From positions 1 to 64,000 of IMG/VR virus record IMGVR_UViG_3300042301_003612: a stretch of 64,000 nucleotides of DNA; one strand, given 5' to 3'. The notes below the pieces were generated by a model. The model worked only from the letters and a program-made list of their open reading frames with translations. It made no database searches and was not told the DNA's origin. Shown in pieces: positions 9,401 through 41,990 of the stretch. The first letter of the stretch is position 1, and each line of letters begins with the position of its first letter. Source of the stretch: a virus. The translations under genes were made by a program, and so were the position numbers.

Positions 9401-9401
9401 T

Positions 9402-11198
9402 ATGGGGAATAGAATAGATACTCGAGTAGTTTTAGGGTCATTAAGGTACAAGTCGGCACCTGACACAAACCTAATGTTTAATGTACCTTTAGTTCAAACT
9501 AATAAGGAGAATATTGAATTTGATAGGAATATTAATATTGACTTACAACAAGTTTTTGATGATGAAAGACAAAAATCCGATACATTTAGACCTGCGTGCA
9601 AGTTCTCATTATTATTTAACAATTCTTATAGTGGGTCAACTAATTACGTACCATTAGAAAATAATTTATATTATGTTAACGCTGTTGCAGCTGCTAAACT
9701 ACAATGTGGGTATAATCCACAAACTGTTCTTTGGTCAGGGTTTCCACAATATAATGAGTTTGACTTTGTTCGCACAGATTATAATGTCCCAGGATATACT
9801 CAACCACCCAATAATCATATTACTTTTATACCTAAAAGTGCTTCAAGTTATAATTGGAATTTTTTTGTTAGTTATGCTTATGATAATGATTTTACAAAAC
9901 CATTAGAGGCTATTGACCAAAAAAGTGGACAATTATTACAATGGATTTCTGGTGGAGGAATACCATTTATAATTAATAACACAACATTTAATGGACAAAA
10001 TTTAGTATCATTTAGATGTCCGGTAAAACATGGTTTATCTATTGGTGAGCACGTAAAACTTAACTTCAGTTACATTGGAATTGACACATTTCAAGTATAT
10101 TCATTAGGAGACCAAAAATCGGGGAGTGAAGAATACATATTCAATATATATAACGTTGGGTTTACTGGCGCTGTTTTTGTTAATAATAAAAAAGGTTTTT
10201 TTAAAAGAATTATTGATATTGAAAATCCTAATGATACTACCTCACAATATTATGTTAGAAGACATAAATTATTAACTAACTCGCAAGACGCGGTATTAGT
10301 TAACGCAGGATTTGACCAAAATATTTTTGGTAATAAAAAGAAATTTGAAAGTAGTGGATTTACGCCAAATCGAGTTGCTAGGGTTTCAACTAAAGAAGGC
10401 TCGCAATCATATACACTATCTTTTAATAAAGACATAAATATTAATCCTATTAGAGATAATCAAAAACGACCTATAAGTGAGTTATTTTTCACTGTCATTT
10501 GGAAAGGTTATTTTGGATTAATGTTTGGTACTAAAAAAAATCCAAATGACTATTTAGGTCTTAAACAAGGTTATGAATTTAATTTACCGGTTGACCCCGC
10601 AAACAATCAACCTAGTTCTTGGTGGGAGAACCTAAACAGTTTATCCGACACAACATTTCCTGTTGGTTTTTATAACACACCACTTGGTGCTGGTTTAGGG
10701 CCTAATTCAGGGCCAATACCATTTACCTATATTGAATCGTTAAAACAAAATGATATTTTAGATGGGGATTTGTGTGAGTGGAATGAATCGGAACAAAAAG
10801 AAAGAGTTATCTCAAAATTATATCATAAGTACAGATTTAACCCATTTGTATTAAGTGTGACAGAACCACAACAATCACCCTCAAACATGTTTGGGTATTA
10901 TTATCAACCTCATTACCCAATAAAGATTAGGGATTATTCTGATTATATTGAAACGGGTAGTAAACAATTAACTGAGGGTATCCCTGACTATGCGTTTTAT
11001 TCGCAAAAAACCGATTCATTTATTTGGAGAGATATATACCAATATGGTTTTATTAATAATGGTATTGGGGTTAATTACCCATTTATTAATGGTACCCATT
11101 ACCCTTATAATTATAATATTTTTAGAATAATTCCGGAAGGAAGTAATTATGGTATAGAAGGATTAACAACTGACCCTATTATCGATGGATGTGAGTAA
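9402..11198 (+). CDS. Putative baseplate/tail structural protein
   Basis: A 598-residue protein with no motif I recognise. It is rich in Asn, Tyr, Phe and Gly, has short beta-like segments throughout and no signal peptide or membrane helix, which fits a virion component. It begins 1 base after the 1828-residue gene (TAATATGG) and its end overlaps the next gene by 14 bases. It therefore appears translationally coupled in a tail-end operon of about 9 kb. Confidence 0.65.
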   Translation: MGNRIDTRVVLGSLRYKSAPDTNLMFNVPLVQTNKENIEFDRNINIDLQQVFDDERQKSDTFRPACKFSLLFNNSYSGSTNYVPLENNLYYVNAVAAAKLQCGYNPQTVLWSGFPQYNEFDFVRTDYNVPGYTQPPNNHITFIPKSASSYNWNFFVSYAYDNDFTKPLEAIDQKSGQLLQWISGGGIPFIINNTTFNGQNLVSFRCPVKHGLSIGEHVKLNFSYIGIDTFQVYSLGDQKSGSEEYIFNIYNVGFTGAVFVNNKKGFFKRIIDIENPNDTTSQYYVRRHKLLTNSQDAVLVNAGFDQNIFGNKKKFESSGFTPNRVARVSTKEGSQSYTLSFNKDININPIRDNQKRPISELFFTVIWKGYFGLMFGTKKNPNDYLGLKQGYEFNLPVDPANNQPSSWWENLNSLSDTTFPVGFYNTPLGAGLGPNSGPIPFTYIESLKQNDILDGDLCEWNESEQKERVISKLYHKYRFNPFVLSVTEPQQSPSNMFGYYYQPHYPIKIRDYSDYIETGSKQLTEGIPDYAFYSQKTDSFIWRDIYQYGFINNGIGVNYPFINGTHYPYNYNIFRIIPEGSNYGIEGLTTDPIIDGCE

Positions 11199-17100: not shown

Positions 17101-17194
17101 TATAGTTATTTATAATTCAATTTGCTCCACTTCAGCCTTTGGTGATAACTTCAAACTAAATGTCGGAATAAACTTTAATATTTTATGTAATTAA
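14174..17194 (+). CDS. Large tail-end protein, possible gpI-like region
   Basis: A 1006-residue protein. Residues about 440-490 (YYRNLVLNSAYLFKSKGTRK, then SIEVLMRLVGAP) match the pattern of P2 gpI-type tail proteins, in which a Lys-Gly-Thr turn precedes a helix that contacts the baseplate. The N-terminal third is beta-rich. The C-terminal part is Cys-rich (QECCKFIPVPCKPC, CNIQSVEC) and may be metal- or disulfide-stabilised. It overlaps both neighbours by 1 base (TAATG), so the three genes are coupled. It probably links the baseplate to the SprB-repeat fibre encoded next. Confidence 0.65.
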   Translation: MAVTKYTCPPQSASGAGTFSDNLVGFQLVTGGGLTQGNFEFVSSINEKTNRTFNTGNFSDPISLDSMGVSGVVQSKSIFENNFKVYPNFDMSQITNFTLYGSMVKRISVSVETIISKFPAALESTFMGTNYVTGATATNILFNSVYDETVFDLDVSKLRNPFDIDFSVNSTRNLELKEISVSPLRDMTIQYAKYSLYVNGVGYDVKSLTPTTNTSSGILQISVSGNPFSGQSIVYYSFVIRPNDYEVTKIFNEDLDEVENFLLNRSVTPIYTATFQVPRESEDGTYYTSNQPITWPLYGEWNIDIITKSFENYLIQLNEVSEYFDIYTTNLVSRFLITGSFKEFDTVTQKMEKVLQIYGRSFDETKKFIDALAFMTSVNYNVGNDIPSQLLKNLAQTLGWGINISPITEDDFLGSVFGQKNKDNSQFTGTSQKQTPDELNYQYYRNLVLNSAYLFKSKGTRKSIEVLMRLVGAPEALVEFNEYVYVADQKINLEQFDTQFYNISGGTYIQELPTYEQGNTFNIMGVTYTGFTTQTTIQDVNINRGEYPMDFYGYPQAPIDTENYFFQIGSGWFEQTPKHRAPEQVDLNNSVFTGSNPNYQTTLIPYSYGQEYLNRFRDFPFMTLGYNLSAVPDNNKSWTDNEVGIRSNLDGGINARYFVDDERLVLNVKNVDLFLNPAQGIVYDVWYMSRQYNYPIPNQGLNYVAPTYCNPHPNIEYPQRGGVDWTEINPQPKRKTFFEFAQTFWQNTINVRNRQYATDGKTSGYPTLSSIFWKYLESQKTINIPNDNFTYQTMIDYVNGMGDYWIRLVEQMIPATTIWNTGVKYENSIFHRQKFVWRRQECCKFIPVPCKPCSLTSNIYRYDCNIQSVECGVYPWYGSSTINSFNAVLGQALNNYLTANGYTLNDCLLNTLTTNWFVEIKINDSTVIQYPFFDGIGYTNISLSSPQPNDWDSALLIALNDLTIYGYDYYLTTTDTIVIYNSICSTSAFGDNFKLNVGINFNILCN

Positions 17195-20100
17195 TGTCTT
17201 GTACTTTATTATATACCTCAACTATAACTGGTGATTGTTCAAATACTAATGTTGGAGGATTCACTATAGATATTAATGGTAGTGCTCCTGATTATTCAAT
17301 TCAGTGGATTAACCCATCTTCTTTAGGAACTATAGCGTTAGGTGCTGGTGTTATACAATATGAGGTTACATCATTATCTGCGGGGACTTACACATTTAAT
17401 ATTATTGATTCATGTATACCAACATTAACGATTGTCCCCGTAAATGTATATATATCAAGTGGAACGTGTGTAAGTATTGATTCTCATACTAATGCTACTT
17501 GTGGCCAAAATAACGGTAGTCTTACCGCATCAACCCAAAATCTTTATGGTATAAGTCAATTCTACCTTTACGATACAATTAATGGTTATATTACTTCGGC
17601 GTCATCAGTGACAAATACTTTTGCATTTGATAATATGTTAAGTCCTGGAATTTATTATGTTATAGGTGATGATGGTGGTGGATGTTCCGGTAAGTCAGAA
17701 ACATGTATTGTTCAAAGTGCGGAAACATTTGACTACGGATTTTATGTTGTTAATGATGCGGGGTGTGCGGTAAATTCGGGTAAAATATTTATTACAGGAT
17801 TAACAGGCACGCCACCATACACTTATTTATGGTCAAACGGAGGAACAAACTCATCAATTAGCGGTTTAAGTGCCTCGACTTACGGTGTTATTGTTACTGA
17901 TGGTAATGGATGTACTATTTCTAAATCGGTAACGGTATTACAAGTGCCATTAGTTGGTTTAGGAGCGTTTACCTCAATTAGTCCAACTTGTTTTGCGTCT
18001 AACGGAGAAATTACGGTTACGGTAACAGGTGGAACCGCGCCATATTATTTTTCAGGTTCAAATGGGACTGTTTATATTACATTTGACCAAACTTACACTT
18101 TTACAAATTTAGCTTCAGGTGTTTTTACAGTACAAGTGACGGATGCTGGTTTATGTAATTTTGTTGCAAGTACAACATTATTACCTCCAGGAGGATTTAG
18201 TATTGTTGGTATTGGTGTTAATAATTCAAACTGTAACAATAACGGGGGGTCTTTAAACCCAATTCAATTATTTGGTGGTAGTGGTAATTACACCTATGAC
18301 TTACAATATCCTGATGGACATCATGATATTGTAAGTACAACAAATCAAAATTGGCAATTTACGGGACTTTCAGGAGGTACTTATAATTTAACAATTAATG
18401 ATGGTGTCTGTACCTTTACCAGTGCTTATACTATCAATAATACTGTTCAATTTAATTTAACAACAACAAGTACAGGAACAACTTGTGGTTTTACTAATGG
18501 AGCTATTAATTTAGAAATTTCAGGTAGTACAGGGCCTTATACTTACTCAATAAATGGGTTAAGTTTGGTTTCGCCTTTAAGTGCTTATACATTTAGTAAT
18601 CTGGCCTCAGGAACATATACGGCTAGTGTTACAGACTTTAGTGGGTGTCAACAAACTAATTCTGTATTAGTTGCCCCATCCGCAAATCCTAATTTTATAT
18701 TAAATGCGACAAATACAGTAAATGGTTCTGATGGTACTATCACCGCATACATAACTAATGGTTTACCACCATTTACTTTAAATTGGAGTAGTAACGTAAA
18801 TGGACAAACAGGGGATACGATTAATAGTTTATCAGCTGGCACGTATTCACTTACAGTTATAGATTTTAATGGGTGTTCTACAATATCAAGTGTTATTATT
18901 ACGGGTACAAATAGTGTGGCATCCTATCAGACATATACAATATGTGATACTGATTTTATCAATTCACCAAATGCAATTAAAACGGGGCCTAAACAAATGT
19001 TAAATGAAGGTTTTTATGATTTAACATTTAATGATATAAATTGTGTGTTAAATGAAGCAATTTTTGAGGCGATTGTGAGTGTTAGTGGTGATGTTTTAAC
19101 TCAACAATTTTATGCTGGTACAACATTAAACGAATATCCTGCAGATAATCAATTTTATGACACAATTACGGGGTTATTATTACAATTTGATGGTATTGCA
19201 AGTGTGGATATTAATCCTCTAAGAAACACTATTCAAATTTTAACTGATTGTGACTCGTTAGTTTCTTTATCGGATGCTCAAGTTATTATTAACATGAAAA
19301 TATATTATGATATCTCGTGCGTTAGTTGTCCTAGTCCAACACCAACACCGACACAAACACCAACGCCAACTAACACTCCTACACCAACAGTCACACTTGG
19401 GTTAAGTCCAACACCAACAAATACCTCAACTCCAGCAAATACGCCAACACCTACACCAACAAAAACACCAACTCCAACACCTTTACCGATAATACCAATA
19501 TGTTCTGTGATAATTAATGGTAGTACTAACGTATCCGCCTATTTTCCATCATCAAATACTAACGTATCTTTAGGTTTTTCAGTAAGTGCACTTGATATTG
19601 CACATACAACAACTAAACTATGGTTGGATACTGGATTGATAATTAAAGAATATAACATAACATTAAACCCTTGGTCAAAAACGTTCAACAGAAACATCGC
19701 ATACCCTTCAGGTGTTTCTTTAGGGGCTGGTTTAGGTGCCATTAGCAGCTCTCAGTTAATCTCAACAAACACTTCAGTATCTCCTAATCAAATAATTACT
19801 TTAGATATTACCACAAGTACCGCAGTTTCAACTGTGATTGGAACACTACTGCCTGGTAGGGAGGTTTCGGGTGATATTTTATTAACAACAACAAATAAAA
19901 TATTAGTTACTAATTCAACTACCTCAGGTCCATATCTTACATATCTAACCCAATATAGTTATCCGTCAGGTACTTTTGAAGTTGAGGTCGATATTACGTC
20001 AACCACACCCCAACCGTATGGTATATTTATCGATAGTGGTAATATATATGTTTGTAACAATGGTGGTCAAATATATAAGGTTAATGTTAACTTTCCATAT

Positions 20101-20481
20101 ACACAAACATTATTTAATAACTCAGGGTTATATGTTGAAGGAGCATCTCAAGTACCAAGTTGTTGTAATACTAACCTAAACTTACCTATAACATACTATA
20201 CTTGGTTTACTAATCTTGATACCTACACATCATCTGATATTACTCCCTGTATAGCCACTGGTTGTGGGGCAAATTTATACACAGCAACATCGACAATAGC
20301 TCCTGGAATTGTAATATATCAGGATAATGCTTTAACAATACCATTTGTTGGTACTAATTATGGTGTTTCAGGTGGTGGATGGGGTAGATTGTTTTTATCA
20401 GATGATTGCCCAATAATTGGATTGAGAAATATTGCACAAGTAAATGGTTCAGGACAAGTTCTAAGTAATTATACATGTTAA
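17194..20481 (+). CDS. Tail fibre/adhesin with about seven SprB-like repeats, Pro/Thr linker and beta-propeller-like end
   Basis: A 1095-residue protein. Residues about 5-585 hold roughly seven diverged SprB-type repeats of about 80 residues; the third is clearest ([33 protein letters not shown]). SprB is the gliding-motility adhesin of Flavobacterium, so the fibre uses the same building block as its likely host's surface. A distinct domain follows (about 590-705). Residues about 710-765 are a Pro/Thr linker ([16 protein letters not shown]). The C-terminal 330 residues show repeated strands such as [15 protein letters not shown] and [14 protein letters not shown], which look propeller-like. 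It is coupled to the preceding tail gene. A receptor-binding role is likely but inferred. Confidence 0.8.
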
Positions 20482-20693: not shown

Positions 20694-20701
20694 TATAAAT
20701 A
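20694..20701 (-). promoter_or_regulatory. Putative late promoter motif, minus strand
   Basis: Read on the minus strand, GATATTTATACTATATG joins the motif to the ATG of the 58-residue gene with a 4-base gap. Confidence 0.5.
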
Positions 20702-20760: not shown

Positions 20761-21738
20761 ATGGATAAAAATTTAAGATTTGTATGTGCCCAACCTGATG
20801 TACCATATTTTTATTGGCAAGTTAGGGTGTACGTTGAAAATTTTATAGAAAAAGGTATTTTACCAAACCAAATACATGTTATTTTTGGTATAGTAACACC
20901 AAATACCGAACCAACTTCAGATTCGTTAAAATTAAAAGAATTGGGAATTAATATCCATCATTATTTAGACGACAGAGAACAAAAACATTATATTCCAAAC
21001 ATTAAGCCATTTTTAATTCATAAATGGTTAAAGGAATTCCCTCAACACGGAGAATGTTTTTTCTTACATGATGCTGATATAATTTTTAGAGAATTACCTG
21101 ATTTTAAAACATTAATGGAGGATGATGTTTTATATCTTTCAGATACTGTTGGTTATATTGGGTTTAATTACATTATGGATTGTTGTAAAAGATATGAATC
21201 TCATCACCCACAATCTAAACAAGGGCAATTACTACAAGAAATGGTTGATGTTATTGGTGTTACGACCGAATGTGTTGAATGTAATGAAAATAATTCAGGC
21301 GGTGGTCAATATTTGATTAAAAAAACAGATTGGATGATTTGGGAAAAAATCTATATGGATTGTGCGCCACTATATGACCAAATGATGGATTACCAAAAAC
21401 GTTTCCCAATAAACCAAGGTGAAATACAATTTTGGACTGCAGAAATGTGGTCTTTATTATGGAACTTATGGTATTTTGGAAAAGAAACTAAAGTAGTTAA
21501 AGATTTAGATTTTTCATGGGCAACCGACTCAATTTCTATTTACGAACAAAGACCAATACTTCATATGGCAGGAGTAACTTCAGATATGAAAACAACTAAA
21601 TTTTATAAAGGTGATTTTATTAATGTTAATCCATTAATTAAGTTAACGGAAAATTTTGAATATTTTGATTATGTTGAAGAACATAGTTCTACAAAAAAAT
21701 ATATAGATGTTATGAAATCTATAGTAAAAAAACAATAA
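20761..21738 (+). CDS. Glycosyltransferase resembling hydroxyproline O-arabinosyltransferase / peptidyl-serine galactosyltransferase
   Basis: A 325-residue GT-A-type enzyme. The landmarks run in the same order as I recall for the plant HPAT/SERGT group: PYFYWQVRVY near 15-24; a metal-binding D104-A-D106 within FFLHDADIIFRELP; GGGQYLIKK near 181-188; TAEMWSLLWNLW near 226-237; DLDFSWATD near 248-256; and a late His268 in ILHMAGVT. Known members add sugar to hydroxyproline or serine in Pro-rich repeats. Here the gene lies between fibre genes encoding Pro/Thr-rich linkers and has the same promoter motif. I infer that it glycosylates those fibres. A less specific phage glycosyltransferase acting on another substrate is the alternative. 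Confidence 0.7.
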   Translation: MDKNLRFVCAQPDVPYFYWQVRVYVENFIEKGILPNQIHVIFGIVTPNTEPTSDSLKLKELGINIHHYLDDREQKHYIPNIKPFLIHKWLKEFPQHGECFFLHDADIIFRELPDFKTLMEDDVLYLSDTVGYIGFNYIMDCCKRYESHHPQSKQGQLLQEMVDVIGVTTECVECNENNSGGGQYLIKKTDWMIWEKIYMDCAPLYDQMMDYQKRFPINQGEIQFWTAEMWSLLWNLWYFGKETKVVKDLDFSWATDSISIYEQRPILHMAGVTSDMKTTKFYKGDFINVNPLIKLTENFEYFDYVEEHSSTKKYIDVMKSIVKKQ

Positions 21739-21744
21739 TCTGAT

Positions 21745-21752
21745 TATTTATA
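21745..21752 (+). promoter_or_regulatory. Putative late promoter motif
   Basis: TATTTATA followed closely by TATAAATA, ending shortly before the ATG at 21765; the pair forms an inverted repeat (TATTTATA-G-TATAAATA). Confidence 0.5.
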
Positions 21753-21764
21753 GTATAAATAACA

Positions 21765-23153
21765 ATGACTAACACGACATCTTTACTTCAACAAAAAAAC
21801 GAATGTGATGTAATTACAATATTTCCAATGACCGTTGAGTGTTTAGTTAACAATCCGTCATCACAAAATGCGACTGATGGAGGTTTATCTATTTCTATAA
21901 CAGGAGGAACACCACCATACATAGTTGCTTGGAGTAATGGTAATATATCTCCGGCAATTAATAATTTAGGTGCTGGTAGTTATACGGCAATAGTTACTGA
22001 CTATTCTTGGTCAGGGAGTGGTCCTGATTATACGGCAACTACAACATGTGTGTTAACCGCACCTATAACACCTACAACTACAACCACAACAACGGTTGCT
22101 CCTGTATTACTCTATGATATTTGTTTAACAGTGTATAAACAACCAAGTAATTATCAAATACACTTTAACCCTAATGGTATATATAATGGTATCTATAGTA
22201 GTGGTTATCAATCATGGATATCAGATGACTCAGTATACCAAATTGTTTGGGGTACACTATACCAGTCATGGACTGTAATTCCGCCCCCAACAAATCCTGG
22301 TTATTATTTACTATCACCCTCACCATATCCACCTTTAACGGGATGGTATATAAATGGTGCGTTAGGAACTGTTGTATCAAATCAAGGTCTTTGTGTACCG
22401 TTACCAAGTAACCCGTCATTTACATATTCACTTACTCAACCAACTTGTATATGTGATGGTAATATAATTATAACGGCTTCTAATGGAACACCACCATATC
22501 AGTACTCAGTTGATAATGGAGTGACATTCACTAGTAATTCAGGGCTCTTCACAGGAAAATGTCCTGGAACTTATAGTTTACAAATTAAGGATTCGTTAAA
22601 TAATTTAAGTACTGTTTCTACGGCTACCTTAAATAATTTTATTGGAATAACAACATATACTCTTAGTTTGTCACCAGTATCTATTACAACGGTAAACAAT
22701 AACACAACTGTAACAAAACAATATACTTGTACCGTAAATGTTTCACCACCAATCCCTGTTGGAACAACAATTACGTTTGATGCACAACACATAAATGTGC
22801 TTGGTAGAGGGCCTGCCTCAACTGACGCAACTATTGTGACTAATAGTGTTTTAACTAAAAATTCAACAGTAATACCAATAACTTCAAGCCCGTCATCAAG
22901 TAATACTACCACACAATTAGGTGCCGGTTGTCAATCGGCGCCAATACATAATACAACCCAAACTGATAACTGGATTTCGGTATCAATGACAAATGGTGAT
23001 ACCATGGTTATTAATACCACAACAACTATGACTAAAATACAACCAGTACCTCATTGTTTCTTTGCGGATTTCGGTGACACATTTTTTGCAGTAAATGGGG
23101 TTATTAATGGATGTAGTTGTTGTACGTTAATTATGCCAAATAAAGCGGTATAA
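21765..23153 (+). CDS. Fibre/adhesin with SprB-like repeats and Thr-rich linker
   Basis: A 462-residue protein. Residues about 22-105 form one SprB-like repeat (GGLSISITGGTPPYIVAWSN, NNLGAGSYTAIVTD). A Thr run (TTTTTTTV) separates it from a tryptophan-rich module. A second repeat at about 222-290 includes GNIIITASNGTPPYQYSVD and CPGTYSLQIKD. The C-terminal part is beta-rich and ends with a Cys cluster (GCSCCTL). The gene follows the glycosyltransferase by 26 bases with its own late motif. It probably forms an accessory fibre or head decoration; the exact place is unknown. Confidence 0.7.
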   Translation: MTNTTSLLQQKNECDVITIFPMTVECLVNNPSSQNATDGGLSISITGGTPPYIVAWSNGNISPAINNLGAGSYTAIVTDYSWSGSGPDYTATTTCVLTAPITPTTTTTTTVAPVLLYDICLTVYKQPSNYQIHFNPNGIYNGIYSSGYQSWISDDSVYQIVWGTLYQSWTVIPPPTNPGYYLLSPSPYPPLTGWYINGALGTVVSNQGLCVPLPSNPSFTYSLTQPTCICDGNIIITASNGTPPYQYSVDNGVTFTSNSGLFTGKCPGTYSLQIKDSLNNLSTVSTATLNNFIGITTYTLSLSPVSITTVNNNTTVTKQYTCTVNVSPPIPVGTTITFDAQHINVLGRGPASTDATIVTNSVLTKNSTVIPITSSPSSSNTTTQLGAGCQSAPIHNTTQTDNWISVSMTNGDTMVINTTTTMTKIQPVPHCFFADFGDTFFAVNGVINGCSCCTLIMPNKAV

Positions 23154-23171
23154 TAAAATAAAAATTAAGGA

Positions 23172-23179
23172 TATTTATA
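23172..23179 (+). promoter_or_regulatory. Putative late promoter motif
   Basis: GATATTTATA, with its end only 3 bases before the ATG at 23183. If it is a -10-like element, the transcript would be leaderless or nearly so. Confidence 0.5.
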
Positions 23180-23182
23180 AAC

Positions 23183-25615
23183 ATGACTTATATATTAAAA
23201 AATACATCGGGATTAATTAATACTAGATTAACAGACACTGGAAGACAAAAATTATCTCAAGGTAATTTTAACATCGAGTATTTTCAAATTGGTGACGGAG
23301 AAGTTTCATATAACTCTTTACCAAGTTCATATAATCAAGCTAATACAAACATATTTGAACCTAATTTTAATTCACAAAATTCAGCACCAACACAATCAAA
23401 TAAACAATATGTAAAATATCCTTATTATGTTGATGGTGTAACAGGTAATACTTATGGTATTCCTTATTCAGAACCTGTGGTTTCTCCTGTATATAACCGA
23501 GCGGCAATGAGAGGATTTTTTACGGGAGACCTTAGTGCGACAACAATTAATTGGAGTGCAATTACAAATAGTTCTCATGTTATTAATTCTAATTATGTTG
23601 TTGATATGTCAGTATTAACTGGCGGTACCACGATTATGTTAATTTATTCAGGTTGTAACACCAATATTGTTAGAATGCCTGCTATAGGTGATTTATTAAC
23701 AATCTATTATGATGGTAATGGTGACCACAATTGTGCCTGTAGTACTTACCCAACGCCAAGCCCAACACCTTCACCAACCCCAACTCCAACCCCATCATAT
23801 GACCCTTGTATCTTACCACCAACCCCAACTCCGTCACCAACATTTTGTCCAATAACACCGACACCAAATTGTGACCCTGTTGTGGAACCAGAATGTCTTA
23901 TGGATATGAGTAGTTGTTACCCAATGATGACATATAAAATTGTCGATATTTGTTTAGGTGTTTACACATTAGATAGGCCAACACCTAATTTTTCAGGAAG
24001 TTCAAATGTTTGTTATGCGAGAACTATCGTATATCCGCCAAATATGACATCACTTTATGATACACTAACACCATGTAAACATTGGAATGAGGATGTTATT
24101 AATTTTGAGTCTGTTTGTTATACAGATGAGTTTGATGTTAAAATTTGGAATATGAATATTCCATGGTCGGAAAATCCTGCGGGGTTAATTCCGACAATAA
24201 ATGAAGGATTTGCGGATTTTGGTTCAGCGACATATATCGGGTCAAAAGAATATTTGGGTTATATGTCGAATAGTGGGCAGACTGACAGCAGTTCAGTATA
24301 CTACTACAACTCTTTCGATGAAAAAGTTACTGTACAACCAAAAGACCAAAAATCTATTGCCATTATTCACTATACAAATCAAAGTATTGATTTCTTTTAT
24401 GGTGAAAAATTTGCATTAGAACCTTATGACCCTACGGCGCCTGCTAATACTATTGGGCAAGCAAGAAACTTTAGACTACATATTCCATGGCTTATGTGGC
24501 ATAAAAATCCTGAATGTTGTTTAGGTGAAACTTTTTGGGTTGACCCTCCAGGGTATGACGGATTAAATTTATTTCAAGTACAATACTTGAAATCTACTAA
24601 GAATGCGGATATGAATAACCCTGGTATGAGATACTACCAATTATGGGATACTAATACAAATGATGACGGGTTCCCAAGTAGAGTTGGTAAAGTTTTCCCT
24701 GACCAAAAAATTATAGTGATTGATGATGAAGAGATTATTGCTGCTATGTCTTATAAATCAAATCGTAATTGGACTCTACCTTCACCAAAACTTACTTTAG
24801 TTGCACCAAATACATGTGGTACTGATAATACTTCATATATTGGTGTGTTAACAGGTGATACTGAGTATATGTATGTGACTTATAGAATTAGTAATACGAT
24901 TAATTTTACTAATTCATTACATTGTAACTATTATACTAGAATACAAGGTCCAAATTTAACTTGTATACCAAGTGCGTCGCAAAACGTGTCAATTAGGTTT
25001 GGTCCGGAGTTTGGTTGTTTAAATCAACCAGATTATACACCAACAACTACAACAACTACAACTACAACAACATTATGTCCATCTGTTTGTTATACGCCAC
25101 AAGGATTTTACGGTGATAAATTTGAAATTATATGTCAAAAAGTTATTGGTGATATTAGACCTGATTCGTCCGAGTGGAAAATAATCGATGTAACATCACA
25201 ATTAAGTGCAACAACCGTTGGAGGGTATATTACTCAAAACGGTATAACAGGTAATACATTTACTATTACTCAAGATGACTATGATAATGCACCTTATTAC
25301 GATTTAAATACATATATACCTCTAACCCCTGTTGGAAGCACTACACCATCTTTAAATTTTGGGGACGAATATTATTTCTATGGTTCGTTAGAAACGGATA
25401 TTCAAGCTACAATATATGAGATGAGGTATAAAATTAATTTAGGTGTTGCTGAATTTCAAGCAACTTCAAACCCAACATGGACTCAAGGGACTGACTCATA
25501 TATAACTGATATTGGTCTTTACGATTCTGATAAGAATCTTATGATTATATCAAAGATGCAATCACCTGTTTTAAGACAAGGGATTCAACAGTTCCTGGTT
25601 AAATTTGATTTCTAA
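23183..25615 (+). CDS. Large fibre/virion protein with Pro/Thr and Thr linkers
   Basis: An 810-residue protein. The N-terminal 80 residues (TSGLINTRLTDTGRQKLSQG, FQIGDGEVSYN) look like a conserved virion-attachment domain. A Pro/Thr/Ser linker with interspersed Cys lies at about 188-235 ([15 protein letters not shown]). A second Thr-only run is near 620-632. Between and after them are aromatic beta-rich domains with paired Cys. The C-terminus (IQQFLVKFDF) looks like a strand-forming trimer end. It is the last plus-strand fibre gene before the RuvC-like nuclease. Surface exposure and possible glycosylation of the linkers are inferred from composition and the nearby glycosyltransferase. Confidence 0.7.
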   Translation: MTYILKNTSGLINTRLTDTGRQKLSQGNFNIEYFQIGDGEVSYNSLPSSYNQANTNIFEPNFNSQNSAPTQSNKQYVKYPYYVDGVTGNTYGIPYSEPVVSPVYNRAAMRGFFTGDLSATTINWSAITNSSHVINSNYVVDMSVLTGGTTIMLIYSGCNTNIVRMPAIGDLLTIYYDGNGDHNCACSTYPTPSPTPSPTPTPTPSYDPCILPPTPTPSPTFCPITPTPNCDPVVEPECLMDMSSCYPMMTYKIVDICLGVYTLDRPTPNFSGSSNVCYARTIVYPPNMTSLYDTLTPCKHWNEDVINFESVCYTDEFDVKIWNMNIPWSENPAGLIPTINEGFADFGSATYIGSKEYLGYMSNSGQTDSSSVYYYNSFDEKVTVQPKDQKSIAIIHYTNQSIDFFYGEKFALEPYDPTAPANTIGQARNFRLHIPWLMWHKNPECCLGETFWVDPPGYDGLNLFQVQYLKSTKNADMNNPGMRYYQLWDTNTNDDGFPSRVGKVFPDQKIIVIDDEEIIAAMSYKSNRNWTLPSPKLTLVAPNTCGTDNTSYIGVLTGDTEYMYVTYRISNTINFTNSLHCNYYTRIQGPNLTCIPSASQNVSIRFGPEFGCLNQPDYTPTTTTTTTTTTLCPSVCYTPQGFYGDKFEIICQKVIGDIRPDSSEWKIIDVTSQLSATTVGGYITQNGITGNTFTITQDDYDNAPYYDLNTYIPLTPVGSTTPSLNFGDEYYFYGSLETDIQATIYEMRYKINLGVAEFQATSNPTWTQGTDSYITDIGLYDSDKNLMIISKMQSPVLRQGIQQFLVKFDF

Positions 25616-25661
25616 TTTTAAGGTTGGATATAATCACTAAAACTTTTTTATAGAACAAAAA

Positions 25662-26264
25662 ATGATTAGAAATAAATTAAAAGAAAGTCCAAAAGTTTTA
25701 GGTCTTGATGTGTCAACTCGAACAATCGGTGTTGCATTATTTGATATACAAAGTAGAGAATTATTAGAATTAACTCACGTATCACCAGTTCCAAAACCAA
25801 AAGAAGAGTCTAAAATTAAGGAATTATTACTTAAGAGTGATATTTTTAGAAATAAGTTAATTGAATATAAAGACTTAGGTATTGTTAAGGTTATTATTGA
25901 AGAACCATTATTAAATTCAAATAATGTTTATACTATTAGTATTTTATTAAGATATAATACCTTAATTACTAAAGAAATTTATGATGTTTTAGGTATTGTA
26001 CCTGAATTTATATCCACCTATAATTCACGTAAGTTTGCTTACCCTGAATTAGTTAGAGAAAACAACAAAAATAAGTTTGTTTTATTTGGGGGATTCCCAA
26101 AAGACTGTGATAAAAAACAAATCATATGGGAACAAGTTGCTAAAAGAGAACCACAAATACAGTGGTTGTATACTCGAAACAATACATTAAAGAAAGAAAA
26201 CTTTGACCAAACAGACGCCTATACTTGTGTATTAGGTTATATGAGACAAGAAAAACTTTGGTAA
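25662..26264 (+). CDS. RuvC-like Holliday-junction resolvase / RNase H-fold nuclease
   Basis: A 200-residue protein expected to cut branched DNA during packaging or recombination. Catalytic acids appear in the expected order: D16 in LGLDVSTRTIGVAL, E80/E81 in VIIEEPL, and D182-x-x-D185 in FDQTDAYTCVL near the C-terminus. Size is close to RuvC (about 170 residues). It lies apart from the recombination genes at 35-39 kb, between the fibre genes and a convergent adhesin gene, and is followed by a strong terminator. Confidence 0.85.
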   Translation: MIRNKLKESPKVLGLDVSTRTIGVALFDIQSRELLELTHVSPVPKPKEESKIKELLLKSDIFRNKLIEYKDLGIVKVIIEEPLLNSNNVYTISILLRYNTLITKEIYDVLGIVPEFISTYNSRKFAYPELVRENNKNKFVLFGGFPKDCDKKQIIWEQVAKREPQIQWLYTRNNTLKKENFDQTDAYTCVLGYMRQEKLW

Positions 26265-26290
26265 TATCGTATAAATAACCGATAATATAG

Positions 26291-26320
26291 AATATCGTCT
26301 TTTTAGACGATATTTTTTTT
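26291..26320 (+). terminator. Intrinsic terminator after the RuvC-like gene
   Basis: AATATCGTC and GACGATATT form a perfect 9-bp stem with a 6-base loop, followed by a run of Ts. It sits between convergent genes; only the plus orientation has the T-run. Confidence 0.85.
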
Positions 26321-26341
26321 TACCTTAAAGTTTTGATTTAC

Positions 26342-29300
26342 TCAATTTTGAGCAGTAGTTGAGGTTATTATAATTGGAACACCACAGTTTGCGGTTGTTA
26401 CTGTAAAAGAATAGTTTATTTCAAAAACTTGGTCAATAGATAATACAGAGTTGTTGTATGAACCAATACTTAATTGAGCATTCGAAATAAATCCGGTACA
26501 AAATGATGAAGGTACCATTGCCTGTAAATAAACCGATACCACAGCACCTGTTTGAACTGAAAAAGTATTTGAATAGACACCAGCAGCTAAGCTAGATTGA
26601 AACGTATATACTATAACACCATTAACTTTTATATTACCCGTTGTCCAAGAACAATAGGTTTTTGTGTGAGTGTAAGACATGGTACAAGGTTGTGGTGTTA
26701 CAGTTGTTGTTGTTGTTGTTGTTGGTGTTGCCGCCGCAGAACAAGCATTACAACTAGGGTATGTTGAGAAACCAGTGAAGTAATTACCAGACCAAGTAAT
26801 TACATTTGTGTTTGGGGAAAATTGTCCCGGTGAACATAAGGAAGAGCCAATAAATTTCCAACACACCCCTGTAGTAGGGTTACGTAAAACATTCCCAACA
26901 ATAGTTGTTGGTGTTGCCGGTACAGTTTGAACTAAGACCTGCAGGGTACTAGATGAATTGTTATTATTGTTAGTACAATCTGTAAACACATAATAAGTTA
27001 AACATGGAGTTGGAGTTACGGTTGATGATGGTGTTGGAGGTAATCCTGATGTTACGGTAGGAGTTGGCGTTTGTGTTGGTGTTTGGGTTGGCGTATTTGT
27101 TGGTGTACTTGTTGGCGTAATAACACAGTTTAAACAATCACCTAAATTAGAAAAACCAAAAGGACCTGCAAGTAAATCCATTTGGTTAATACCTATGATA
27201 TCGTTGTTTACCCCAATATAACTCACACATTTTGACACACCATCAACAAGTGATTCAAAAACCATATATATTTCTATATCAAGACCTGGAGTTGGGTTCT
27301 CAAGGACACTTGTTGTATAATACATACTACCATTAAAACAGTCTTGGAATTGTTTACTTGATGGACATTTAATTAAGTCATTAACAGTATTAAATGTTAC
27401 GTTTCCTAAAAAGTCACACGGTCTGTCAATTGCGGGTGTAGGTGTTGGTGTGGTTGTTACTGTAGGTGTTGGTGTTGGTGTAATAGAACTAATCGTTGCA
27501 TCAACACTAACATTTGAACATACATTTATTGGTGTCTGAGTAGGTGTCTGAGTAGGTGTTGGGGTCTGAGTAGGTGTTTGCGTTGGAGTAGGAGTAAAGT
27601 CACAATCAAATAATGCCGTAAAGTCAACATCACACGGTAATGTAGGTGTTGGCGTTGGTGTAGGACAAATACCTGCAAGTAAATTGTCGTCACATAAATC
27701 AGGACAAATACTATAACAAGGTGATTTACCCGATAATAAACAAATACCACCTAAACTGGTCGATAAACACCATTGAGTGTTTGTCGTGTCATAATAAATA
27801 AATAATGAATTTAATGTACCAACCCAATAAAAATTAATACCATAAGCACCAACTCTTACGTAGTTATCGTCCCATAAGACATTGCCCGTATCATATAAAC
27901 AATAGTTTATTACCGTACAAAAACCTACAGGTATTGATGTTTCAGTTGGTGTTGGCGTTGGTGTTTCAGTTGGTGTAGGAGTATTTGTTGGTGTTTGGGT
28001 TGGAGTTTCGGTTGGTGTAGGAGTATTTGTTGGTGTTTGGGTCAGCCCATTTGTTGGCGTATTTGTTGGTGTTTCAGTTGGTGTTGGTGTTTGGGTTGGT
28101 GTATTTGTTGGTGTTTCAGTTGGAGTATTTGTTGGAGTTTCAGTTGGTGTTTGGGTTGGTGTTTCAGTTGGTGTTGGTGTTGGTGTTTCATTTGGGGTTG
28201 GAGTATTTGTTGGTGTAGGTGTATTTGTTGGTGTTTCAGTTGGCGTATTTGTTGGTGTTTCAGTATTTGTTGGTGTATTTGTTGGTGTTTCAGTATTTGT
28301 TGGAGTATTTGTTGGAGTATTTGTTGGTGTTTCAGTTGGAGTATTTGTTGGAGTATTTGTTGGGGTATTTGTTGGTGTTTCAGTTGGCGTTGGTGTAACT
28401 GTTGGTGTTGGAGTATTTGTTGGAGTATTTGTTGGTGTAGGTGTATTTGTTGGTGTTTCAGTTGGCGTATTTGTTGGTGTTACAGTATTTGTTGGGGTAA
28501 CTGTTGATGTAGGTGTATTTGTTGGGGTATTTGTTGGGGTATTAGTCGGAGTTTGAGTCGGCGTTTGAGTCGGAGTATTTGTTGGAGTTACAGTATTTGT
28601 TGGAGTATTAGTTACAGTATTTGTTGGAGTATTTGTTGGAGTATTTGTTGGAGTATTTGTTGGTGTTTCAGTTGGAGTATTTGTTGGAGTTACAGTGTTT
28701 GTTGGAGTATTAGTTGGCGTAGATGTTGGAGTTTCAGTTGGGCTTGGTGTAGGAGTATTTGTTGGAGTTATTGTATTTGTTGGTGTTACAGTATTAGTTG
28801 GAGTATTAGTTGGAGTATTAGTCGGTGTATTAGTTGGTGTATTTGTTGGAGTTACAGTATTAGTTGGCGTTATTGTATTTGTTGGTGTTGAAGTATTTGT
28901 TGGAGTATTAGTTGGAGTTGTTGTTGGTGTTGGTGGAGGATTTGTTGAGGTAAGAGTTGGGGTGGGTGTTGGAGTTTCAGTTGGACTTGGTGTAGGAGTA
29001 TTTGTTGGAGTTACAGTATTTGTTGGTGTTGGTGTATTTGATGGTGTTGAAGTATTTGTTGGTGTTATTGTATTTGTTGGTGTTGATGTATTTGTTGGCG
29101 TTATTGTATTTGTTGGTGTTACAGTATTAGTTGGAGTATTAGTCGGCGTATTAGTCGGCGTATTAGTTGGAGTATTAGTTGGAGTTGGAGTTGGGGTTGG
29201 GGTTTGGGTTGGAGTGTTAGTTGGAGTTGGAGTTGGGGTAGGTGTTGGGCTAAGTGGTGGTGTACAATACCAACTTGGAGCATTACACATGTTTAGAGTA

Positions 29301-29836
29301 ACAGTTACAGTTGAATAAGTTGCGTTAGTTTTAACGTCATTAATATATAAATATGGAATTGGGTTTAGTATATTAACACACATGTTGAATGTACCAGGCA
29401 CCTCAAATGGGTATGATAAAGTTTCTCCAAGCTGACAATTATACATGTCAACAAATACTACTCCGTCAACTGCAGGGTCAGTATTACCTACGGCATCATT
29501 TAAGTCCTTAGAATCAATATAAATGTCAACACACGTACAAGTTGGTAATGGTATAATATTGGGACTTTGACATTTTGCCGTATGGTCGACCATACAAGCG
29601 GCACAACCACCTCCAGGTGTATACTCAAAATAGGTGTTAACACTATTATAGTGAGTCTCAACATAACCAGCAAGTTTGGCCTCCCAACATACATCATTTG
29701 TGTCATAATAAATTTTACCTGCAATAAACTCTGAGTTTGTAACTCCATCAATTGTTGGCGTACATGGCCTAATAATTACTGCATTGTTAAAACAACATCT
29801 TAAAAATACTGTATTACATTCTGGTATTTGCGGCAT
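26342..29836 (-). CDS. Giant Thr-Pro-repeat surface/fibre protein
   Basis: A 1164-residue protein. An N-terminal Cys-rich beta region (about 1-195) is followed by roughly 435 residues of Thr-Pro repeats, mostly NTPT units (DNA 27941-29250), then small globular modules divided by shorter Pro/Thr linkers, and a C-terminal beta domain. The modules share a pattern: a strand ending with CW or similar, then a paired-Cys exit ([24 protein letters not shown]). Such linkers are usually extended, exposed and glycosylated. It has a late motif 36 bases upstream and is the only large minus-strand gene in the region. Probably a long flexible virion adhesin; no enzymatic motif seen. Confidence 0.75.
27941..29250 (-). 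repeat. 1.3-kb low-complexity tract encoding Thr-Pro repeats
   Basis: On the plus strand it is built from units such as GTTGGAGTATTT and GTTGGTGTTTCA; on the minus strand these read NTPT and ETPT. Units are imperfect at third positions and interrupted by rarer variants. Shorter tracts of the same kind occur near 27010-27120, 27430-27485, 27530-27595 and 27640-27662. Confidence 0.95.
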
Positions 29837-39963: not shown

Positions 39964-40764
39964 ATGAAAGAAAAAAGCTCATCAATTTCAATTAACCAAG
40001 AAGAGATACAAATATATCTTAAGGACATTCGTAAAATAAAAGTTATGACTCCTGAAAGGGAGAGAGAACTTGCAAAGATGATAGCTACTGAGGGTATTAC
40101 CCAAAGAGAAAAAGATGCAATTCACAAAGAACTTTTAGAAGGTAATTTACGTTTTGTAATTACAGTGGCAAAACAATATCAAAATCAAGGATTAGATTTT
40201 CCTGATTTAATAGCCGAAGGTAATTTAGGGCTAATGAAAGCCATTAATAATTTTGATTGGTCTAAAAACCTTAGATTTATTTCTTATGCGGTTTGGTGGG
40301 TTAAACAATCAATCTTACAGTCTTTAAATGACAACTCAAGAACAATTAGATTACCTGTTAATGTTGTTCAAGATTTACATCGAGCAAAAAAAGAGGTTGA
40401 ATCTAATGGTGCTCAACTAGATGATAAATTCCAAAGGTTACCATCGATGATTGATTTGGATATGAATATTAACGAAGATGGTGATACTTTAATTGATATT
40501 ATTAAGAATGACCAAGCGGAGATGCCTGATGAGATATTTAATAGTAAGGATATGTTAAAGTCAAAACTATTAAATCTTCTTGATTTTTTAGATGAAAGAG
40601 AAAAAGTGATTATTGAAGATTATTTTGGATTAACAGGGACACCAAGAACTTTAGAGGATATAGGTGGTGATTTTAACTTAACAAAGGAGAGAGTTCGTCA
40701 GATAAAACAAAAGGCTTTAAGGAAAATAAGAAATGAAAGTGATTGTTTATACGATTATATGTAA
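39964..40764 (+). CDS. Sigma-70 family RNA polymerase sigma factor, RpoD-like
   Basis: A 266-residue sigma factor. Residues 14-40 resemble region 1.2, 52-131 region 2 (GNLRFVITVAKQYQNQG, ISYAVWWVKQSILQSL) and 203-262 region 4 with the helix-turn-helix TLEDIGGDFNLTKERVRQI. Region 2 is very close to Bacteroidota primary sigma factors, so it was probably acquired from a host. Region 3 is short and altered. It probably redirects host polymerase to phage late promoters; TATTTATA is the obvious candidate target, an inference. It is read from a host-type promoter and ends at a strong terminator. Confidence 0.92.
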   Translation: MKEKSSSISINQEEIQIYLKDIRKIKVMTPERERELAKMIATEGITQREKDAIHKELLEGNLRFVITVAKQYQNQGLDFPDLIAEGNLGLMKAINNFDWSKNLRFISYAVWWVKQSILQSLNDNSRTIRLPVNVVQDLHRAKKEVESNGAQLDDKFQRLPSMIDLDMNINEDGDTLIDIIKNDQAEMPDEIFNSKDMLKSKLLNLLDFLDEREKVIIEDYFGLTGTPRTLEDIGGDFNLTKERVRQIKQKALRKIRNESDCLYDYM

Positions 40765-40830: not shown

Positions 40831-41121
40831 ATGAAAGCAATTTTAAATTTTATTGACACTTGGGGAGTTAGAATCATTACATTATTAATATTAATTATCT
40901 TTTTTAAAACTTGTTCGACTAATGGAAAAGTTGAAAAAGTTCAAAAAAGTGTAGTGGAGACTAACATTAAAGTAGATTCATTATCACTTGAATTACAAAA
41001 ACAAATTAAGATTGAAGGTCTTAAATCTGAAAAAAGAATGATTCAATCTACTGATAGAAAAATTATGGATGTTAACAGACAGACAGAAATTGATAAAGAA
41101 ATATCTCAACTTGATAAATGA
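40831..41121 (+). CDS. Membrane-anchored coiled-coil protein
   Basis: A 96-residue protein with one N-terminal membrane helix (IITLLILIIFFKTC, about 15-28) and a charged helical remainder. It overlaps the next membrane-protein gene by 4 bases (ATGA), so the two probably work together in the envelope. It opens the membrane/lysis-type cluster after the sigma terminator. Function unknown. Confidence 0.55.
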   Translation: MKAILNFIDTWGVRIITLLILIIFFKTCSTNGKVEKVQKSVVETNIKVDSLSLELQKQIKIEGLKSEKRMIQSTDRKIMDVNRQTEIDKEISQLDK

Positions 41122-41990
41122 AAATAATTTTTTCATGGATTAAATCCAACCCAATTAGGGCTATGTTTTTATTCCCGATTATATTAGTTGGGATTATTTC
41201 TATTTCCCACGTAGTCTCTTGGTATGATTTAGCGAATCCACTTAGTTGGGCAATCTACCTATCAATAGCTATAGAGATTGGCGCTATGACGGCATTGATT
41301 GCGGCAACAAATCGAATTAAAGGTGGGGTGTGGTTTATGTTTGGGTTAGTTACTTTTGTACAAATGATTGGTAATATATTTTTTTCTTATAAAGAAATTG
41401 ACTCCAACGGGGAATTATTCAAATCTTGGGTAGAACTTACTGGCCCAATATGGGAAGGTTTAGGTTCTGACATTACAGATGTTGTATCATTGAAAAGATG
41501 GTTAGCATTTTTAGAAGGTGGTTTATTACCAATAATATCTTTAACCTCATTACATTTTTTCATTAAATACGATGAAGGTAATAGGACTGTTGTTGAACCT
41601 GAAGTGTTTGAAAAAATTGTTGAAGTAATTAAAGAAGATTCAGAGAGGGACACCAATGTCCCTCACAAAGAAGATACCATACATGATACTATACATGATG
41701 AGATTGAGATTCCTGAAAGTTATTTAACACATCATACCACACATTATACCCCTCAAGTCGAAACAATTGTAGTTGAAAAAATTGTTGAGGTACCTGTTGA
41801 GGTTATTAAAGAAGTGGAGAAAATTGTTGAGGTACTTGTTGAGGTTATTAAAGAAGTACCTGTTGAAGTAATTAGAGAAGTTGAGGTTATTAAAGAAGTA
41901 TTTGTTGAGGTTATTAAAGAAGTTGAGGTCACAACAACCACAACAACTGAAGATAATATTAAAAGATTAAGTTATATAAAACCTGATTAA
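41118..41990 (+). CDS. Multi-pass membrane protein with Val-Glu-Ile-Lys repeat tail
   Basis: A 290-residue protein. Hydrophobic helices lie near 14-36, 42-64, 70-90 and 135-152; the rest is soluble. Residues about 211-275 repeat VEVPVEVIKEV-like units with striking DNA periodicity, then a Thr run (TTTTTTE). The same repeat style occurs in the protein at 35.7 kb. Possible roles include anchoring a replication or virion-assembly complex to the membrane. It is coupled to the preceding coiled-coil gene and lies just before the amidase gene. Confidence 0.6.
   Translation: MKIIFSWIKSNPIRAMFLFPIILVGIISISHVVSWYDLANPLSWAIYLSIAIEIGAMTALIAATNRIKGGVWFMFGLVTFVQMIGNIFFSYKEIDSNGELFKSWVELTGPIWEGLGSDITDVVSLKRWLAFLEGGLLPIISLTSLHFFIKYDEGNRTVVEPEVFEKIVEVIKEDSERDTNVPHKEDTIHDTIHDEIEIPESYLTHHTTHYTPQVETIVVEKIVEVPVEVIKEVEKIVEVLVEVIKEVPVEVIREVEVIKEVFVEVIKEVEVTTTTTTEDNIKRLSYIKPD

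Follow-up and report, generated by a model that had tools for sequence, protein, structure and literature searches.

The enzyme gene and its neighbours

The DNA analysed here, referred to as the window, is a stretch of 64,000 nucleotides from a virus (positions 1 to 64,000 of the 83.6-kb IMG/VR record IMGVR_UViG_3300042301_003612), and our subject is the gene at 20761..21738 on its plus strand, together with the runs of threonine (Thr) found in the products of neighbouring genes. The open reading frame (ORF) starts with ATG, encodes 325 amino acids and is a genuine gene. Directly downstream, at 21765..23153 on the plus strand, is a gene for a 462-amino-acid protein with SprB-repeat matches, in which residues 104-110 form a run of seven Thr (T7) written in mixed Thr codons (22074..22094). 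It is followed on the same strand by a gene for an 810-amino-acid fibre-like protein (23183..25615) with four Thr-Pro-Thr (TPT) triplets and a T10 run at residues 621-630, encoded by mixed ACA and ACT codons (25043..25072). Both proteins are probable acceptors of a modification by the enzyme. A possible acceptor is the 1164-amino-acid Thr-Pro-rich protein encoded on the minus strand at 26342..29836, which has 106 TPT triplets and one T7 near the C-terminus (residues 1039-1045; 26702..26722, minus strand; six ACA codons and one ACT). The Thr tracts of these three proteins share the context TP-T7..10-[V/L]-x-P. Upstream of the enzyme gene, the 1095-amino-acid SprB-repeat protein (17194..20481, plus strand) has a Thr-Pro linker with seven TPT triplets and no run of four or more Thr, and is probably not the main acceptor.

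An earlier note on this DNA had described the 325-residue enzyme and the 1095-, 810- and 1164-residue neighbours with Thr-Pro linkers, all of which are present, and the 462-amino-acid gene and the poly-Thr runs were missing from it. In the whole 83.6-kb record, runs of at least five Thr occur in four listed ORFs, those for the 462-, 810- and 1164-amino-acid products and one for a 290-amino-acid product (41118-41990).

The 325-amino-acid product matches the PHROG profile phrog_4417, a family of unknown function, with an E-value of 6e-67 (residues 6-321 on positions 2-291 of 293), and it has no curated Pfam or NCBIfam assignment. Its AlphaFold2 model, built from a 48-row alignment, reached a mean local confidence (pLDDT) of 96 and a global score (pTM) of 0.93. 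When solved structures were searched with this model, the top match after re-alignment was glycogenin (Z 15.5, 3.4 Å over 228 residues, 9% identity), followed among the matches listed by LgtC, UGGT, the Skp1 galactosyltransferase, GlyE and LARGE1, and the listed rows are glycosyltransferases. Glycogenin is a peptidyl-tyrosine glucosyltransferase of family GT8. In a library of predicted viral proteins, the top two matches were a protein of an uncultured member of the Caudovirales and Orf49 of Lactobacillus phage LP65. Sequence searches of the solved structures in the Protein Data Bank (PDB), with the protein itself and with the 48-row profile, gave no match. The predicted fold thus makes the product a glycosyltransferase, because the top solved matches of the model are GT-A glycosyltransferases, though no sequence family names it.

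All 48 aligned family members have D104, D106, Q183, Q223, W225, E228-M229-W230, H268 and K283-G284, which are candidate catalytic residues. These include the D-x-D motif of the GT-A fold (D104 and D106), and also the EMW and late His that the earlier note had singled out. The two invariant aspartates and the late histidine presumably have a metal-binding role. The best Pfam matches of family members were SwrA (0.0011; one member of the 48) and Nucleotid_trans (0.011; likewise one member), and at E<=10 the members together matched 10 Pfam families, none of them GT8.

Poly-Thr tails beside the enzyme gene in Firmicute phages

One genome scan gave 35 phrog_4417 loci, all from Firmicutes going by the record titles, and with phage phiFL1A these make a set of 36 loci, in which we considered plus-strand ORFs of at least 80 amino acids and counted a run of at least five Thr as a tag. 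The ORF immediately upstream of the enzyme has such a run in 32 of the 36 loci, and every locus has at least one tagged plus-strand ORF. No tagged ORF was found in the set at offsets -8, -4, -3, 0, +1 to +3 or +6 to +8 from the enzyme. The upstream products end in tails such as TTTTTTTSA and TTTTTTSHA, which are carried by mutually non-homologous proteins. Ten tagged proteins were typed with PHROG profiles: major head and major tail proteins make up eight of them, one has no known function, and one of 113 amino acids (in L089) has matches to tail families and, on inspection, an FN3-like appearance. In four loci (L104, L091, L117 and L108) both the major head and the major tail protein are tagged, and in L104 a small head-region protein of unknown function is tagged too.

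Four loci have no run in the ORF immediately upstream. In L119 the enzyme ORF is split and the tagged tail protein lies one ORF further up; in L098 the tail protein carries the weaker TTTSTTSA, and T6 is found on the capsid protein; immediately before the enzyme in L105 (the same locus as L177) is a short open stretch rich in Thr; and in L085 the tag is on a 219-amino-acid ORF downstream of the enzyme.

The annotated phages place the enzyme in the same company. In siphophages its gene adjoins head or tail genes, lying 3' of the major tail protein gene in phiFL1A and PMBT8, 3' of the major tail protein gene and a small overlapping ORF in SA2 and TPWB06, 3' of a capsid or major head protein gene in bIL285, CHPC836 and 9183, and 3' of a 'major structural protein' gene in phage 1706. 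Its position in the myophages LP65, Bacchae and 521B is 3' of a structural, 'major tail' or Ig-domain gene, or of a small ORF beside it, in a neighbourhood that also contains recombination and other genes.

Presence and absence of enzyme and tag in three protein families

We then compared homologous virion proteins with and without the enzyme nearby. For the major tail protein, relatives were searched in 299 genomes of one order; 35 genomes were matched at 39 places, and the 30 provided as loci were read. Four of these have the enzyme within 1.5-kb flanks, three with a tail of at least five Thr and one with TTTSTTSA, whereas the 26 without the enzyme include no tagged protein, and eight of these untagged proteins have a body identity of 60-71%. 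A phrog_4417 search of the same 299 genomes found exactly the four genomes with the enzyme at the tail locus, and consequently the genomes of the 26 enzyme-free loci have no copy elsewhere. When these major tail proteins were pooled with those of the loci described earlier (identical rows were merged here, as in the capsid set and for the fibre tree), the tag was found in 20 of 23 distinct rows with the enzyme and in none of 26 without it (49 rows, Fisher 6e-11).

Capsid protein relatives in 345 genomes gave 19 loci, with the tag in 5/5 with the enzyme versus 0/14 without, and the pooled set of 21 rows gave 6/7 versus 0/14 (Fisher 1e-4). Twelve of the 14 enzyme-free capsid genomes do not have the family anywhere, and two (G003 and G615) have it far away. 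In the enzyme-bearing exceptions L086, L089 and L093, the tag sits instead on a small protein adjoining the enzyme.

Relatives of the N-terminus of the 810-amino-acid fibre were found on 80 contigs of the window phage's lineage, of which 72 gave usable loci; four were left out for a truncated fibre (L204, L236, L248, L259) and four for little upstream DNA (L208, L214, L219, L221). With enzyme presence judged on flanks of up to 9 kb, 32 of 36 fibres with the enzyme have a run of at least five Thr, compared with none of 36 without it (Fisher 4e-16), and after merging identical sequences the numbers are 23/26 versus 0/24. At least two TPT triplets are found in 34/36 fibres with the enzyme and also in 20/36 without it, and the Thr-Pro linkers therefore do not require the enzyme. 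These results suggest that the acceptor is probably the Thr runs and not the Thr-Pro linkers, which the earlier note had proposed. In the same lineage, 48 of the 53 distinct enzymes from 82 contigs are accompanied, in the available DNA, by at least one ORF that contains five or more consecutive Thr.

On the trees, the tag and the enzyme changed state 6 and 6 times for the fibre, 10 and 9 times for the tail protein, and 2 and 1 times for the capsid protein. Well-supported pairs on all three trees are agreeing or neutral; about two of the three on the fibre tree agree and none opposes, which is too few for significance. With two to three such independent pairs per tree, the phylogenetic test is weak within any single lineage. 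The strength of the case lies in three unrelated acceptor families answering alike.

Sequence and reading frame of the tails

The residues that follow the last Thr are often the same on different proteins of one phage. Among phages with both tails (identical pairs merged, the split capsid ORF of L119 assigned by hand), these residues are identical between the capsid and the tail protein in 18 of 31, compared with 2.9 on average and at most 10 in 20,000 shufflings; common phage ancestry can inflate this count, though the capsid and tail proteins are not homologous. In phage 1706, for example, HHD ends both proteins. LP65, whose enzyme has 23% identity, has TETQTQTQ tails on the two ORFs preceding the enzyme, one of them annotated 'structural protein 2-D,MS', and 521B (28% identity) has the tag TTVAPTTVKP. 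Distant enzymes thus go with altered tags.

The Thr codons of 111 runs were examined as well. Adjacent codons are identical in 178 of 612 pairs (29%), compared with 28% expected from codon use, and none of the 111 runs is made of a single codon. The codons are mixed as if at random, and therefore selection would have acted on the protein rather than on a DNA microsatellite.

In some phages the tail is not in the frame of the gene, or lies past its stop codon (L182:5550-6890, L184:7117-7930, L183:3762-5000 and L287:4595-5892). In VPE25 a poly-Thr frame starts across the stop codon of the gene preceding the enzyme, in the -1 frame; this gene is annotated as hypothetical and is presumed from its position to encode the capsid protein. 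A similar out-of-frame poly-Thr stretch is found at the end of the major head gene of 9183. The tail gene of SA2 ends in T8-Pro-stop at CCC TAA, with a long poly-Thr frame going on at +1, and at the protein level the tail genes of TPWB06 and PG-2021_4 end like that of SA2. In bIL285 the capsid stop codon TAA is followed in frame by NDKTTTTTTRHD. These arrangements suggest that in some phages the poly-Thr tail may be made by translational recoding, and perhaps only part of the subunits would be tagged. Listeria phage PSA uses programmed +1 shifting in structural genes.

Distribution of the family and of the tag

Relatives of phrog_4417 were found in 74 of 50,697 phage records, mainly phages of Lactobacillus, Enterococcus, Staphylococcus and Lactococcus, with one Chryseobacterium phage and one Arcanobacterium phage; VPE25 and VFW each have a member. 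In IMG/VR, one scan gave 209 confirmed stretches and a scan with the profile 517, of which 80 were kept in each scan.

A reverse test was done with exact DNA patterns for T7-Ser-Ala-stop and T8-Gly-Ala/Val-stop, and gave 21 stretches in 19 virus records, seven of which have phrog_4417. Among records in which the family was not found, tags are carried by both head and tail proteins in L308 and by tail proteins in L302 and L306, and L311 has a tagged, real-looking open stretch of 207 codons that was not typed; the match in L299 is a chance frame of ten residues and no real ORF. The tag is therefore wider than phrog_4417, because tagged virion proteins occur in records without the family. In the 18.6-kb record L312, in which phrog_4417 was not found, a major head protein (phrog_422) ending in T12-GA is directly followed by two glycosyltransferase-like genes (7626-10175), one a clear match to PF11397 (4.5e-14) and the other weak (glycosyltransferase family GT2 0.0027, PF11397 0.0032). 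This single contig suggests that a second glycosyltransferase family may read the same tag.

In whole large records, a pattern of seven Thr codons was matched in 10/10 with the enzyme and 2/4 without it. The reversed control pattern also matches 10 of the 14, and for this reason the comparison rests on the 15 stretches that were opened, which are part of the matches. In several of the larger enzyme-bearing relatives, additional ORFs contain more than one Thr run. A protein that starts with MTTTTTTT occurs in one enzyme-free and one enzyme-bearing large phage (L278 and L273), and therefore not every Thr run is part of a tag system.

Other features of the window and its record

Records related to the window phage reach 318 kb, so that Thr tags elsewhere in its virion are possible. 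The 290-amino-acid product mentioned above has hydrophobic N-terminal stretches, long VEVIKEV repeats and T6 near its C-terminus, and its gene adjoins a weak Rz-like spanin match and an amidase.

The motif TATTTATA, which the earlier note had taken to be common to the genes around the enzyme, is not enriched in the window: it has 26 matches where 18.6 are expected, and 26 was reached in 6 of 100 shufflings. Its reverse complement, TATAAATA, has one copy at 20694, upstream of the enzyme gene, and resembles the T4 late promoter. The window also contains genes for a sigma-70-type factor (39964-40764) and a glutamine synthetase-like protein (60481-61674; Gln-synt_C, E 1.5e-19). Beyond the window, the same record encodes a dTDP-glucose 4,6-dehydratase-like protein (69337-70233) and an RmlC-like protein, an epimerase by this likeness (70492-71013), both scoring below the NCBIfam cut-off, and a GT2 glycosyltransferase (82564-83286), a set that could hint at a sugar supply of the phage's own. 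We considered whether RmlC (PF00908) travels with the enzyme; it is present in 3/9 enzyme-bearing and 2/4 enzyme-free records, and accordingly we claim no link.

Proposed function and alternative explanations

Following these analyses, we think it very probable that the gene at 20761..21738 encodes a phage protein O-glycosyltransferase whose substrates are poly-Thr tags on surface proteins of the virion. The GT-A enzyme, probably metal-dependent, would act during assembly in the host cytoplasm, moving a sugar from a nucleotide-sugar donor onto Thr hydroxyls within the poly-Thr tracts of surface proteins that the phage itself encodes. In the window phage these tracts would be short internal linkers of the fibre-like proteins encoded beside the enzyme, and in the Firmicute relatives mostly the C-terminal tails of the major capsid protein, a small head-region protein or the major tail protein. 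The virion would then carry a flexible bristle with dense glycosylation, which could shield the particle or bind to glycan-recognising surfaces. That the phage coats its own fibres with sugar had been suggested by the earlier note. This part of its idea agrees with the glycosyltransferase fold and with a genomic company that points to the phage's own virion proteins, and what falls away is the Thr-Pro linker as the acceptor.

Several observations weigh against this reading. The tag is not exclusive to the family, since 12 of the 19 records found with the tail patterns do not have phrog_4417 (11 of the 12 are contigs shorter than 60 kb). Two of the four enzyme-free large phages have one run of T7 to T9 each, one of these at the start of a protein whose counterpart in an enzyme-bearing phage is T-rich there too, and the other two have no match. 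Runs of T5 to T6 also occur in other proteins of some enzyme-free fibre loci, in seemingly folded segments, and in the window's own record the membrane-like 290-amino-acid product, which is not an obvious virion protein, carries one. Four of the 36 enzyme-bearing fibre loci (L217, L243, L253 and L257) have a fibre without a run, and five of the 53 distinct enzymes (L011, L019, L025, L034 and L081, four of them on cut loci) have no ORF with at least five Thr in view. L221, left out for its short flank, shows T10, and no enzyme is seen in that flank; beyond the flanks, whole records were examined for only four of the enzyme-free fibre contigs. The rows compared are related, with three independent pairs on well-supported branches for the fibre, three for the tail protein and two for the capsid. 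Finally, the activity is a prediction from sequence and from a structure model.

We have considered three other explanations. The earlier note had seen in the product an enzyme of the plant HPAT/SERGT type (families GT95/GT96), with the Thr-Pro or hydroxyproline linkers of the fibres as its substrates, and we now regard this as unlikely. The fold is that of a glycosyltransferase, the neighbours are rich in Thr-Pro, the D-x-D, EMW and His landmarks are there (they would correspond to those of HPAT), and TPT-rich fibres are somewhat commoner with the enzyme; but kinship has no support from sequence, as PF23452, the Pfam family for HPAT, matched none of the 48 members at E<=10 (the HMMER filters drop most matches above 0.1). 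PF23452 gave no match in the record of the window either, which says little alone since 14 control genomes were silent too. The plant families are not among the listed rows of the fold searches, which covered solved structures and predicted viral proteins and are no test of this kinship. As for the acceptor, more than half of the enzyme-free fibres keep their TPT triplets and none has a poly-Thr run, and the tagged Firmicute tails are Thr runs and not Thr-Pro repeats. A hydroxyproline acceptor would call for a prolyl hydroxylase, and no 2-oxoglutarate/Fe oxygenase of family PF13640 was found in the 83.6-kb record, which is possibly a fragment (the same search matches 3 of 14 controls, and other hydroxylase families were not searched). 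The host could supply such an enzyme; Thr as an acceptor needs no hydroxylase.

Another possibility is that the enzyme acts on a host or DNA target, as in seroconversion or base modification, and that the poly-Thr tails are unrelated surface bristles. VPE25 and VFW have indeed been reported with glycosylated cytosine, and that report infers the modification from a separate T4-like beta-glucosyltransferase (PMC4999554). Against such a target stand the joint presence and absence of enzyme and tags in three unrelated structural protein families, the position of the enzyme beside head or tail genes in annotated siphophages, and the sharing of the tag sequence within a phage, and we consider this explanation very improbable. 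The least probable of the three, to our mind, is that a GT-A-like fold performs another chemistry, for example nucleotidyl or phospho-sugar transfer, on the same poly-Thr tags. The product belongs to no curated glycosyltransferase family by sequence, with only the SwrA and Nucleotid_trans matches given above, and has no sequence match in the PDB; yet the listed structural matches are sugar transferases, and the two aspartates and the late histidine, presumably metal-binding, are invariant.

The reading as a poly-Thr O-glycosyltransferase can be widened, with rather less confidence: we lean towards poly-Thr as a glycosylation tag that is portable and general among tailed phages. A given phage would mark surface proteins that are not homologous to each other (capsid, small head protein, tail tube, fibres) with a single tag, in some phages apparently by translational recoding where the capsid or tail gene ends; at least two unrelated families, phrog_4417 and the PF11397-type pair, would have been recruited, and divergent enzymes would co-evolve with divergent tags. 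If the reading as a poly-Thr O-glycosyltransferase is true, a family of unknown function acquires an activity together with an acceptor that sequence alone suffices to recognise, and phages of lactic acid bacteria, enterococci, staphylococci, bacilli and Bacteroidota would have sugar-coated capsids, tails or fibres, which would matter for the stability and adhesion of phages, for their recognition by antibodies and for phage therapy. The tags shared by relatives in many phages suggest that self-coating with sugar may be widespread, and the combination of a compact peptide tag with a soluble-looking phage O-glycosyltransferase is directly testable. We found no publication that links poly-Thr tails or phrog_4417 with phage glycosylation; most subscription papers were outside the search, and this is not proof of absence. 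Nor did the literature searched contain a publication joining hydroxyproline O-arabinosyltransferase and phage.

Comparison with known systems

Among solved structures the closest likeness is to the GT8-type GT-A enzymes, with glycogenin, which has a protein acceptor, ranked at the top. Unlike a GT8 enzyme, the product shares only 9% identity with it, and the 48 members match no GT8 family in Pfam. The plant HPAT/SERGT enzymes have, according to the earlier note, the same order of landmarks (D-x-D, E-M-aromatic, late His), and differ in the missing PF23452 match and in the acceptor, which is indicated to be poly-Thr and not Pro-rich repeats. The PF11397 (GlcNAc) glycosyltransferases of L312 are of a different family from phrog_4417 and also follow a poly-Thr-tagged capsid gene.

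The nearest parallel in biology is the glycosylation of mycobacteriophage virions, which Freeman et al. (2023) reportedly described for Che8, Corndog and Myrna. According to published accounts, phage glycosyltransferases modify the capsid and tail tube subunits of mycobacteriophages, with glycans at the C-termini (PMC12619734, PMC12363180). In the Firmicute relatives the capsid and tail proteins both have a C-terminal poly-Thr tail, where the glycan is predicted. The enzymes are different, as Che8 gp108, gp109 and gp110 score -2.7 to -3.2 bits against the phrog_4417 profile, and with scores below zero bits the Che8 glycosylation genes are ruled out as homologues. The Che8 capsid and tail proteins have no poly-Thr in their last 90-110 residues, the capsid protein ending in NKTGS, and some 50 kb separate the Che8 glycosyltransferase genes from the head genes. 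Virion glycosylation by phage enzymes is thus already known from mycobacteriophages, with unrelated enzymes and other C-termini, and what would be new here is its form, in which a phrog_4417 enzyme is paired with a poly-Thr tag.

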